Source: Pseudoalteromonas sp. GCY (lineage in GTDB: Bacteria; Pseudomonadota; Gammaproteobacteria; Enterobacterales; Alteromonadaceae). Taken from it: a stretch of DNA of 64,000 bases. Numbering within the stretch: the first letter of the stretch is position 1; each line of letters begins with the position of its first letter. Where the stretch lies: NCBI RefSeq assembly GCF_016695175.1, contig NZ_CP068023.1:794501-858500 (forward strand), given 5' to 3'. Below the pieces are notes generated by a model that searched no databases, was not told the DNA's origin, and worked only from the letters and a program-made list of their open reading frames with translations. Below, one piece after another: positions 24,222 to 57,470 of the stretch. The position numbers were made by a program, and so were the translations under genes.

Positions 24222-24611
24222 TCGCGAGGTGAACTCGCTCCCACCAAATTAATAACTCCGAGGAGCTGGTTCATCACTTCTTTGTGTAGGAGCCGGTTTA
24301 TCCGGCGATCTTTGAGCAGTTTAGAACATCGCGAGGTGAACTCGTTCCCACCAAATTAATAACTCCGAGGAGCCGGTTCATCACTTCTTTGTGTAGGAGC
24401 CGGTTTATCCGGCGATCTTTGAGCCGTTTAGAACATCGCGAGGTGAACTCGCTCCCACTAAATTAATAACTCCGAGGAGCCGGTTCATCACTTCTTTGTG
24501 TAGGAGCCGGTTCACCCGGCGATCTTTGAGCCGTTTAGAACATCGCGAGGTGAACTCGCTCCCACCAAATTAATAACTCCGAGGAGCCGGTTCATCACTT
24601 CTTTGTGTAGG
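24222..24611. repeat. 107-bp tandem REP-pair array, left part
   Basis: Four units whose TCGCGAGG landmark falls at 24222, 24329, 24436 and 24543, an exact 107-bp period. Each unit holds palindrome A (GCGAG, 5-base loop, CTCGC, then TCCCAC) and palindrome B (GTAGGAGCCGG, loop, CCGGCGATC). Palindrome A is homologous to the reverse complement of B, so each unit is an inverted REP pair (BIME-like). Between A and B is a third partial copy (GAGGAGCCGGTTCAT). The fourth unit is cut inside palindrome B by the insertion element at 24612. Confidence 0.9.
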
Positions 24612-24683
24612 AGATGTATGGACTCCTCCCCCTTATCGGGAGAGTACGGTATAAAGATATTGCAAAACACTTTTACCAAATAA

Positions 24684-24696
24684 GGAGTCCATACAT
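24684..24696 (+). promoter_or_regulatory. Internal inverted copy of the IS left end over the transposase RBS
   Basis: GGAGTCCATACAT at 24684-24696 is the exact complement of ATGTATGGACTCC at the left end (24614-24626). It contains the Shine-Dalgarno GGAG and the first two bases of the transposase ATG (24695-24697). RNA entering from outside the element could pair the two copies and hide the RBS. Transcripts starting inside the element would not. Confidence 0.6.
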
Positions 24697-25726
24697 GACA
24701 CAGTCTAATTTAATTGCTATCGACTTGGCAAAAAACATTTTCCAGGTGGCACAGCTGAAAGGCAATAAACTCAAGTTTAATAAGCCAATGAAACGCGAAC
24801 CTATGCTTGAGTTGCTAGCAAAAGCCGAGGGTTCAAAGGTCGTGATGGAAGCTTGTGGTAGCGCCCAGCATATTGCTCGCAAAGCACTGTCACTGGGGCA
24901 CGACGTCATGTTGCTTCCCCCTAAGTTCGTAAAAGCGTTTAGGCAAGGCCAAAAAACCGATGCAAACGATGTCCTCGCCATTGCCAGTGCAAGCCAAGCA
25001 TACAACGTGAAGCCCTGTAAAATCATGACGGTTGAAGAGCAAACGTTACAATCATTGAGTCAAGCGAGAGCCTTAATAGATAAACAAAAGACTCAGCTTT
25101 CAAATCAAATACGTGGCTTGCTATTAGAGTTTGGTATTGTCATTAATCAAGGCGATGCTGCGTTAACACAAGTCGTTCCAGATATTTTAGAAGATGCTGA
25201 AAATGCGCTCCCCATCGCATTAAAACAAGCACTCGCGGTGAGTTATGACCTATATAAAACACAATGCGACGCTAAAGCGCAGCTACATAAACAAGTTGAA
25301 GCGATAACCAAGCAAAATGACAGTTGCCAGCGTTTAATGGCATTAGAAGGCGTTGGCCCAATTACCGCGATAGAGCTGCTATCCTTTTTAGGCAATACTT
25401 CACAATTTAGTGATGCCAGAGGAGCGGCCGCATGTGCAGGTGTTACACCGACCCAGCACTCATCAGGCGGAAAAGCCAAGATAGGTCATATCCCCAAAAG
25501 ACGAGGCAATACATTAAGGAAAAACCTGTTTCTCGGTGCAAGAACGGTAGTCAGCAGGCTAAAACATAAAGAAGCGACCACAGAGAAAGAACGCTGGATA
25601 AAAAACCTACTCGCCAAGAAAAGCGTGAAATGTGTTGCCATTGCATTGACCAACAAAACGGTTAGAACAGCCTATGCCTTACTTAAAAACGGTTCAACAT
25701 ACGAGCCAAAAATCTTAGCAGCATAG
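24695..25726 (+). CDS. IS110-family transposase (DEDD recombinase)
   Basis: A 343-residue recombinase. The N-terminal RuvC-like domain carries the DEDD set: D10 (IAIDLAKN), E52 (VVMEACGS), D89 and D92 (KTDANDV). A coiled-coil middle follows (about residues 115-215), then the Tnp_20 domain with the helix-hairpin GVGPITAIELLSFLG and the catalytic serine region TPTQHSSGGK (about residue 257), then GHIPKRRGNTLRKNL. The frame is open from 24614, but the ATG at 24695 with GGAG upstream starts the conserved domain. No break is seen, so the gene looks intact. IS110-family enzymes act with an RNA guide encoded in the element. Confidence 0.94.
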   Translation: MTQSNLIAIDLAKNIFQVAQLKGNKLKFNKPMKREPMLELLAKAEGSKVVMEACGSAQHIARKALSLGHDVMLLPPKFVKAFRQGQKTDANDVLAIASASQAYNVKPCKIMTVEEQTLQSLSQARALIDKQKTQLSNQIRGLLLEFGIVINQGDAALTQVVPDILEDAENALPIALKQALAVSYDLYKTQCDAKAQLHKQVEAITKQNDSCQRLMALEGVGPITAIELLSFLGNTSQFSDARGAAACAGVTPTQHSSGGKAKIGHIPKRRGNTLRKNLFLGARTVVSRLKHKEATTEKERWIKNLLAKKSVKCVAIALTNKTVRTAYALLKNGSTYEPKILAA

Positions 25727-25774
25727 CACTGAGTAACAGAAGAACAAATCAAGATAAACAGAAAAAGAAAGCAA

Positions 25775-25965
25775 AAAGCATACTGAGATTACCCCCAGTA
25801 TTGAACAAGCCAAGATAGAGCATTAAGCGGTGAGACCCACCCTTGAGAGCCTGTTAAAGCGCAGGTGTATACAAATACCGCGTAGGAGATAAGGCACAAG
25901 GGCGCGAATACATCAAAGAGGCCGAGGTAGCACCTCATCAAGAGCCTGGATATAAGCACGCAATC
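25775..25965 (+). ncRNA. Candidate bridge (seek) RNA of the IS element
   Basis: The non-coding 3' part of the element folds by eye into three structures. A hairpin TACTG/CAGTA lies at 25781-25800. A large loop is closed by CCCTTG (25840-25845) and CAAGGG (25897-25902); its 3' side has GTAGGAG (25882-25888), identical to the left target flank plus core. A second loop is closed by GCG/CGC (25904-25906, 25959-25961) and AGGC/GCCT (25919-25922, 25944-25947), topped by hairpin GAGGT/ACCTC. It carries ATACATC (25908-25914), complementary to the left end, and ATATAAG (25950-25956), identical to the right end plus core. This is the layout known for IS110-family bridge RNAs. The ends of the RNA are approximate. 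Confidence 0.65.
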
Positions 25966-26013
25966 ACACCAATAATGCTAAAAGTGGCTTGTACAATTGG
26001 AGGAGTCCATATA

Positions 26014-26548
26014 AGCCGGTTTATCCGGCGATCTTTGAGCCGTTTAGAACATCGCGAGGTGAACTCGCTCCCACCAAATTGATAACTCCGAGGAGCTGGT
26101 TCATCACTTCTTTGTGTAGGGGCCGGTTTATCCGGCGATCTTTGAGCCGTTTAGAACATCGCGAGGTGAACTCGCTCCCACCAAATTAATAACTCCGAGG
26201 AGCCGGTTCATCACTTCTTTGTGTAGAAGCCGGTTTATCCGGCGATCTTTGAGCCGTTTAGAACATCGCGAGGTGAACTCGCTCCCACCAAATTGATAAC
26301 TCCGAGGAGCCGGTTCACCACTTCTTTGTGTAGGGGCCGGTTTATCCGGCGATCTTTGAGCCGTTTAGAACATCGCGAGGTGAACTCGTTCCCACCAAAT
26401 TGATAACTCCGAGGAGCCGGTTCATCACTTCTTTGTGTAGGAGCCGGTTTATCCGGCGATCTTTGAGCCGTTTAGAACATCGCGAGGTGAACTCGCTCCC
26501 ACCAAATTAATAACTCCGAGGAGCCGGTTCACCCAGCGATCTTAACTT
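26014..26548. repeat. 107-bp tandem REP-pair array, right part
   Basis: Continuation of the array after the insertion element: TCGCGAGG landmarks at 26052, 26159, 26266, 26373 and 26480, again exactly 107 bases apart. With the left part this gives nine units. Units differ at a few positions (for example GGGGCCGG or AGAAGCCGG for GGAGCCGG). The last unit is shortened, passing from the middle element directly to CACCCAGCGATC before unique sequence. Confidence 0.9.
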
Positions 26549-49372: not shown

Positions 49373-49471
49373 TTTCGACGCCCATCCATGGGCTACGACT
49401 TACTTTTCTTTGATGCCCAAAGAATCGTTGCGCAAAAGAAAAGGCACTCCCAACATCACACCGACTCCTCA

Positions 49472-49575
49472 AGTAAATTGCCAATATGGACGTCACCGCG
49501 GTGTAAGGGCCATCCCTGGCCCTGTCACCGCTTTTCACGCATCCATGCGCTGAAATGACTCATTGGCAATTTACT
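49472..49575. repeat. Nested inverted repeats, hairpin-rich element
   Basis: Outer arms AGTAAATTGCCAAT (49472-49485) and ATTGGCAATTTACT (49562-49575) are exact complements over 14 bases. Inside is a hairpin GCGGTG (49498-49503) / CACCGC (49526-49531) containing GGGCCA/TGGCCC with loop TCCC, followed by GCATCCATGC. No reading frame of interest is present. It could be a MITE-like element or a structured RNA. Confidence 0.6.
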
Positions 49576-49677
49576 TTCGGGTGTGGTGAGGGAGATACAA
49601 GGCGCTGATAGTTTTGTTTGGTGCTTGCAAGCAACTATGTTTCTGATGGCTTTGTGGACAGCTAACAGACAACTTAT

Positions 49678-56286: not shown

Positions 56287-57470
56287 CACCTTTTTAAGTC
56301 CTTTAAATACGCTGGTGTCGCCAGGCAATGAGCAACTCTCCTTGCCTTAAAACTCACTTCTATTTTCGTACTGCTCTAAAAATTTAAGCATGGATACTGC
56401 GCTGATAGTTTTTGCAATACTTGCATGCAGCTTAATCGCTAAAATCGTAGACGATCTCACAAGCAACGTATTCCCCCTCCATCACACCCGAAAATCATAA
56501 GTCGATATGCAATGTGCCGACAGGATGTCGGCCAAGTCTTGTCAGGCACAGGGAGGTGCCTTACAAGACGGTTGCACTATATCGGCTTAGGATTTTAGGA
56601 TTAAGTGTGATGCTGGGGCGACGTTTTCTTGGTTCGCTCGATCGCGTCGTTTAAAAAGAATGAACGAGGAGTGCATGGATGCGCTTTGATATTAAACATG
56701 GAGGTTTATTTTGCTAACGGCTGATAGCTCGAAATTTATCGTAAAGTCAGCCCGTCCTCCTGACAAGTTTTGGCATCCATCTATGGGCTACGACAACCTT
56801 TTCTTTGCTTGCCCTAAAGAAAAGGTAGCAAAAGAAAAGGCACTTCTTCACCGCACCCGAAAAGCATAACTTCTCGGCGGGTGAACCGCCTCCCACAACA
56901 CTATTTAGATTGTGAGCTTGGAGGCTACGCTGATAGTTTTTACAATGCTTTAAAGCAGCTTAATCGTAAAAATCGTAGAAGATCTTACAAGCAACGTATT
57001 CCCCCCCTCCATCACACCCGAAAAGCATAAGCCGATATGCAATGTGCCGACAGGATGTCGGCTAAGTCTTGTCTGGCACAGGGACGTGCCTTACAAGACG
57101 GTTGCACTATATCGGCTTAGGGGTTGAGGATTAAGTGTGATGTTGGGGCGACGTTTTCTTGGTTCGTTCTTTTTTGTCGTTTTAAAAGAATGAACGAGGA
57201 GCGCATGGATGCGCTTTGATATTAAACATGGAGGTTTATTTTGCTAACGGCTGATAGCTCGAAATTTATCGTAAAGTCAGCCCGTCCTCCTGACAGTTTT
57301 CGACGCCCATCCGTGGGCTTCGACTACCCGAAAAGCACACTTCTCGGCGGGTGAGCTGCTCCCCACAAAGCTATCTGCACTGCTAATTAGGAGGCTATGC
57401 TGATAGTTTTTTGTAGTTGTTACAATCAGCTAATTATTAAAATAATCCGTGCTTACCCTCACAGGAAGAG
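56287..57470. repeat. Tandem pair of Q-P repeats on the right of the toxin island
   Basis: About 1.2 kb without a gene. After a short start it holds Q copy 2 (56471-56692), P copy 2 (56744-57000), Q copy 3 (57000-57222) and a shortened P copy 3 (57274-57430). The two Q-P units repeat with a 529-base step. REP palindromes of the GGCGG type sit at 56871-56896 and 57341-57366. Single copies of Q and P, in the other order, lie left of vgrG. Confidence 0.82.

Follow-up and report, generated by a model that had tools for sequence, protein, structure and literature searches.

A non-coding RNA locus downstream of an IS1111-group transposase gene in Pseudoalteromonas, very probably a seekRNA whose guides change together with their targets

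The insertion sequence described here lies in a window of 64,000 nucleotides from the genome of Pseudoalteromonas sp. GCY (here denoted G000; contig NZ_CP068023.1, positions 794,501 to 858,500), where it interrupts a tandem array of 107-bp units carrying a REP-like palindrome (Table 1). The listed open reading frame of the transposase begins at 24614; we infer that translation starts at ATG 24695, because AAGGAG stands upstream of it. A profile search placed both IS110-family Pfam domains above cut-off and matched the protein to NF033542, the NCBIfam model of the IS110 family RNA-guided transposase, with 259 bits (cut-off 140). Its relatives of solved structure are the ISCro4 and IS621 transposases, the relationship to IS621 being distant, and close relatives of the element were found in Pseudoalteromonas records. 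Downstream of the gene is a non-coding stretch of 272 bases (25727-25998), and about 65 bases separate the left repeat from the start codon. The 13-bp subterminal repeats, within the range of about 11-13 bp for the group, together with the downstream non-coding region place the element in the IS1111 group.

An AG core stands at 24612-24613 and again at 26014-26015 and may be counted with one side of the element or the other; this core is all that the left flank and the right end have in common. When joined, the flanks read TTCTTTGTGTAGGAG followed by CCGGTTTATCCGGCGATC, which matches neighbouring array units. Since the flanks rejoin to an array unit on both sides, the insertion was precise and added no target bases. 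Counting the core as part of the left end, and 12 bp as the repeat, gives terminal extensions of 6 and 3, the 13th base matching as well; for IS1111 elements the available text of PMC11187229 gives 7 and 3 bp and, on occasion, 6 and 3.

Table 1. Features of the element and its target in the window (positions 1 to 64,000)
Feature	Position	Strand	Basis or remark
IS1111-group insertion sequence, 1402 bp	24614..26015	+	flanks rejoin to neighbouring repeat-unit sequence
Left subterminal inverted repeat TATGGACTCCTCC	24617..24629	+	read from sequence
Right subterminal inverted repeat GGAGGAGTCCATA, 13 bp, perfect	25999..26011	+	read from sequence
Target: 107-bp tandem array with REP-like palindrome, left part	24222..24613	.	
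Target: 107-bp tandem array, right part	26014..26531	.	
Transposase gene, DEDD_Tnp_IS110 and Transposase_20	24695..25726	+	likely start ATG 24695
5' hairpin: left end 24614-24626 pairs with 24684-24696	24614..24696	+	predicted fold; same arm in relatives
Probable seekRNA / bridge RNA core	25830..25966	+	covariance model match 139.8 bits (window RNA inside model); compensatory changes
Right-target guide TAAAGCG	25855..25861	+	complementary to right flank CGGTTTA (26017-26023), 6/7 here
Left-target guide GTAGGAG, core AG included	25882..25888	+	identical to left flank and core 24607-24613
Left-end (donor) guide ATACATC	25908..25914	+	reverse complement of GATGTAT 24613-24619
Right-end (donor) guide ATATAAG, core AG included	25950..25956	+	identical to 26009-26015
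Putative circle-junction promoter, right-end part: -35 TTGTAC 25989-25994, 17-bp spacer, four -10 bases	25989..26015	+	promoter use inferred

A reading made earlier from the sequence alone had proposed that the downstream non-coding region holds the bridge (seek) RNA of this element, with four guides in two hairpin loops. Direct reading finds all four guides where that reading placed them and with the matches it gave, including the right-target guide that fits at six of seven positions. The guide matching the target top strand (25855-25861) stands 5' of the one matching the bottom strand (25882-25888). The AG core is contained in the left-target and right-end guides, and the pairing of the left-end guide takes in a single core base. 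That both left guides end at the core, as the sequence-only reading had it, agrees; what has to be added is that the right-target guide falls short of the core in the window clade. In none of the 14 elements of clades A and A' does this guide pair with a core base: it reads CAG at the place where a CU able to pair with the core stands in all 11 elements of clades B, C and D. Among the sites of A and A' elements, bases one and two of the right flank vary.

The 287-nt RNA region folds at z = -5.1 with both proposed loops present; in a shorter cut (25785-25975) the donor loop is gone from the best fold. In the consensus, two hairpins hold the guides inside their internal loops. Across 13 sequences from eight clades, 12 of the 21 pairs of the two-loop fold changed on both sides, an under-count for some inner helices, where the alignment is off by one base in clades D to G. 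Pairing was kept in 91.1% of cells as against 75.0% in shuffles (0/500 reached the observed value) and 32-42% in slid controls; further pair types of the two-loop fold were no more numerous than in shuffles (194/500). In predicted folds of the 13 free RNAs the mean unpaired probability was 0.64-0.97 for donor guides and 0.11-0.73 for target guides. The left and right target guides of clade D and E RNAs partly pair together in these predictions, so that this pairing would need to be opened for a target to bind. Rfam 15 at gathering scores gave no match to the guide RNA locus; elsewhere in the window three TwoAYGGAY matches exceeded the gathering score (49451-49595 on the minus strand, 56464-56628 and 57039-57105 on the plus strand).

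Short words may match by accident in a non-coding region of 270 bases, and the window element taken by itself goes only modestly beyond such chance: an ordered search for four 9-mers scored 27/36, equal to the best of 400 dinucleotide shuffles (mean 23.2, maximum 27). Because this rejects chance only weakly, relatives were needed. With one representative per clade against 400 shuffles each (A' absent), B, C, D, F and G scored above all shuffles, A equalled the maximum, and E, at 24, remained within its shuffles (maximum 26). In 41 elements from eight clades the four guide places recur at near-constant spacing (24-27, 26-27 and 38-46 nt); this set has loci with the same flanks merged and leaves out L074, L075, L090 and also L052, whose left end departs from the exact motif and which is retained in the flank and REP-head counts. 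Among the 40320 permutations of the eight clades, own pairing was met or beaten by 1 (itself) for the right-target guide and by 2 for the left-target guide, in a test that is not blind for clades D to G, the registers of which came from the best ordered match of the shuffle search. For each donor guide the figure was 720/40320, because six clades have the same ends, and for all four guides jointly it was 1/40320. The constant register, the permutations, the compensatory changes of the fold and the foreign loci described below make chance matching a vanishingly improbable explanation, and the co-variation of guides with sites refutes it.

This co-variation, which the sequence-only reading had put forward as a check, is seen directly in the relatives: guides change with both sites and element ends. 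In clade A' (P. flavipulchra, G045 and G075) guide and flank both read GTGGGAG in 6/7 elements; the exception is L022, whose GTGGGAG guide goes with a flank reading GTAGGAG, a combination in which a G-T wobble would preserve pairing. All three clade B elements (L014, L015, L026) carry GTAGCAG in guide and flank. Sites spelled GTGGGAG or GTAGCAG thus hold elements with matching guides, L022 apart, and GTAGGAG is not kept there, so the relatives do not show the retained GTAGGAG segment that, by the sequence-only reading, would have spoken against it. In clade C the guide is GTAGGAG in three elements and the flank matches in two of them. The left guide of clade D, TCAACAG, is exact in 5/6 flanks, and one base of its right guide is U, C or G opposite a flank base A, G or C in 6/6 elements from four genomes, although L066/L067 and L069/L090 are two pairs that share one genome and one RNA each. 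In clade G both ends are altered and the donor guides are altered likewise (4/4). The right-end guide of clade F, ATATACG, equals the end in 5/9 elements and is one base off (ATATACA) in 4/9. The fit is worst in clade E, where the left guide matches 5, 5 and 8 of 9 positions; L029 and L065 are further exceptions.

These data bear on the possibility that recognition of the REP palindrome lies in the transposase protein, the 3' RNA being regulatory and its resemblance to the flanks incidental. Other insertion-sequence families reach REPs through protein recognition, according to the part of PMC1525189 available, and the transposases of clades A and A' do differ at a few residues. Nevertheless, near-identical elements have the same base changes in guide and flank, and the targets in clades D to G, like those in other genera, are not the REP of the window and yet match their own RNAs. 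We regard protein recognition as highly improbable on this evidence, and conclude that the 3' non-coding region is very probably the seekRNA, or bridge RNA, of its transposase, a reading of the sequences that is supported by the agreement of protein family, RNA position, guide order, fold and co-variation.

The target in the window clade, about GTAGGAG followed by NNGSTTTA, corresponds to the head plus the loop of a dispersed REP-like palindrome. G000 has seven full and two broken copies of the element. GTAGGAG directly precedes all nine, and a REP-like right half follows the eight that have a right end. The left-target guide equals the left flank in all eight copies carrying the RNA (the broken copy L010/L011 is without RNA and outside the guide counts). 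The right guide is TAAAGCG in four of these copies and TAAACCG in four, and it is complementary to the flank at 7/7 positions in L002 and L008. We rejected the idea that this G/C base follows the flank within G000, since the two agree in 5/8 copies, which indicates that the base is tolerated rather than read. The single mismatch of the window copy, correctly seen in the sequence-only reading, therefore reflects tolerated REP allele variation.

REP heads, which compete as sites within a genome, were counted in four genomes with one pattern for each allele, giving GTAGGAG/GTGGGAG ratios of 103/43 in G000, 72/21 in G045, 79/30 in G075 and 52/27 in G034; GTAGCAG heads were counted with a looser pattern and left out of the odds. 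Copies of clades A and A' lie at the REP head spelled by their own guide in 14/15 cases where 7.5 are expected (P 1.2e-4), with P 0.06 for G000 alone (8/8) and P 0.002 for A' alone (6/7), all approximate because REPs are clustered. Cluster weighting of the G000 REPs gives P 7e-5, with a weighted fraction of 0.659 worked by hand from REP lists, one of which holds 100 of 103 entries.

The mismatch of the window copy with its own flank, and the internal gaps of two G000 copies, would also suit a situation in which the RNA is an ancestral guide and the window copy is immobile, its guides being relics. This is unlikely, as the seven full copies are 98-100% identical in DNA and have open transposase frames, with internal stops in 0/6 when compared with the window copy, suggesting recent movement. 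Two broken copies, L008/L009 (G000:C2:3634428-3635664) and L010/L011 (G000:C1:549658-550301), have the same internal transposase gap at about residues 160-214 and lie at two separate GTAGGAG sites; L008/L009 retains a 316-aa open frame, the ends and the RNA. This deletion form of the element may have moved.

Across the order, the covariance model of the RNA scaffold matched 52/295 genomes and 22/99 genera, the genome of the window included. From the 51 foreign genomes, 16 loci in 16 genomes were examined; they hold 17 RNA matches, with ends placed for 16. The register of the left guide was fixed by the RNA, making its test blind to the flanks, and anchor motifs were widened after the RNAs had been seen. 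The left guide fits its own flank at at least 7/9 positions in nine loci, at 6 in one and at 3 or fewer in six, with a mean of 5.25 for own flanks versus 2.83 for other flanks (0/100000 permutations). Among the poor fits, L128 and L130 seem off by one base, the L129 RNA has a deletion, and L122, L123 and L120b have doubtful ends. For the right guide the best of four registers was taken for the own flank alone; its permutation is therefore biased and is not relied on.

By analogy with ISEc11 and IS621, as far as these are described in the available parts of PMC11187229 and PMC11208160, and in line with the anatomy and co-variation seen here, the first loop should hold the target and the second the circle junction, with exchange at AG. 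Once expressed and bound by the transposase, the RNA would use the internal loop of its first stem-loop for the target, the 5' side pairing with the top strand to the right of the core and the 3' side with the core AG plus the bottom strand to its left. The second stem-loop would pair with the joined ends of a circular form of the element, its 5' side with the left end and its 3' side with the right end and core. With the circle junction and the target united by the transposase, exchange would take place at the AG core and leave no duplicated target bases.

The arrangement resembles that of the IS1111-family elements ISEc11, ISPa11 and ISKpn4, for which the available text of PMC11187229 describes a seekRNA in the downstream non-coding region with the top-strand guide 5' of the bottom-strand guide, subterminal repeats, a junction promoter and natural redirection by changed guides; ISPa11 likewise targets a REP. 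Compared with that account, the donor guides too are read out here by co-variation, the right-target guide of the window clade stops short of the core, and the series contains single-base guide changes between species. The IS621 bridge RNA, in the part of PMC11208160 available, similarly has a target loop and a donor loop that each pair with both strands. It differs in lying at the opposite element end, upstream of the recombinase gene, in the order of the guides, which is reversed, in that the window element has longer subterminal repeats, and in having the core in all four pairings, unlike the window element. Filing the window RNA as IS621-type (IS110 group) was rejected because the RNA is downstream of the transposase gene; the same source predicts a bridge RNA for 93.0% of IS1111 elements. 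For the REP-targeting ISPa11, ISPpu9 and ISPpu10, the accessible text of PMC1525189 lists copies in REPs in 6/6, 7/7 and 7/7 cases, against 9/9 following GTAGGAG here, in another genus, with other REP alleles and with a guide that follows the REP head allele.

The element ends themselves suggest when the RNA would be made. A circle would join the four -10 bases of the right end to AT 24614-24615 and complete the box as TAAGAT (TA-AG-AT), which is complete at joined ends only. TTG at -35 and the -10 box stand in the same register in 37/41 elements (36 with TANNAT, and L007 with TTAGAT), and in clade G the promoter is one base over, an offset read by eye. These promoter and ribosome-site assignments follow consensus sequences. 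As the joined ends complete the promoter, the circle is probably the main source of transposase and RNA. The predicted 5' hairpin spans the ribosome site and start codon of the transposase; its arm is present in 37/41 elements with up to 2 mismatches, and none was found in clade G when the 41 elements were searched. If transcription begins some seven bases past the junction -10 box, near 24622, the predicted fold of the transcript is without this hairpin. Translation would then be expected of mRNA made from the circle but not of read-through mRNA, in which the hairpin is predicted to stay over the start codon. A study of ISPpu9 reportedly deals with 5'-UTR structure.

Taken together, the guide and target series allow a reading that falls just short of being probable: lineages of the element may track REPs across species by one-base guide changes, the left guide reading the REP head allele (GTAGGAG, GTGGGAG or GTAGCAG) at single-base resolution. 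Wobble would be one-way, in that a GUGGGAG guide may use GTAGGAG and the reverse would not hold, a part that rests on one exception, L022. The right guide of the window clade would have given up core pairing and would read mostly the invariant REP loop, widening the range of usable REPs. If this reading is right, a marine bacterial genus would be a natural retargeting series for RNA-guided transposition. RNA-guided elements of the IS1111 kind are already known; new and useful here are the natural series of retargeted elements and the way in which REP alleles are tracked. The series runs from one-base guide changes in near-identical IS1111-type elements up to unrelated targets in other genera, with guide, target, element ends and junction promoter readable together. 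Its ready-made matched and mismatched guide-target pairs could serve to measure how specific RNA-guided recombinases are in their less studied IS1111 branch, and the series ties RNA-guided insertion sequences to the evolution of REP repeats.

L076 (G032:C7:264700-269900) holds three clade F elements in tandem, their left ends 1709 bases apart, and at L054 and L055 (G045) a full A' copy precedes another, partial one that has a right end of its own. A model search of G000 for stand-alone guide RNAs returned the eight element copies and two further matches, neither of which we read as an orphan system. One, at C1:816101, is what remains of a clade-G-like element whose transposase gene is broken; in this decayed element (L117 2302-2442, G000:C1:816101-816241) the guide RNA still scores 104 bits. 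The other, at C2:2371430, adjoins a 135-aa frame that we take, by eye, to resemble a Y1-type transposase. In the same genome, two Y1_Tnp matches (L092 and L091, G000:C2:681322-681648 and 682623-682949) lie within a cluster of GTAGCAG-headed REP-like repeats, the arrangement expected for a REP-associated transposase.
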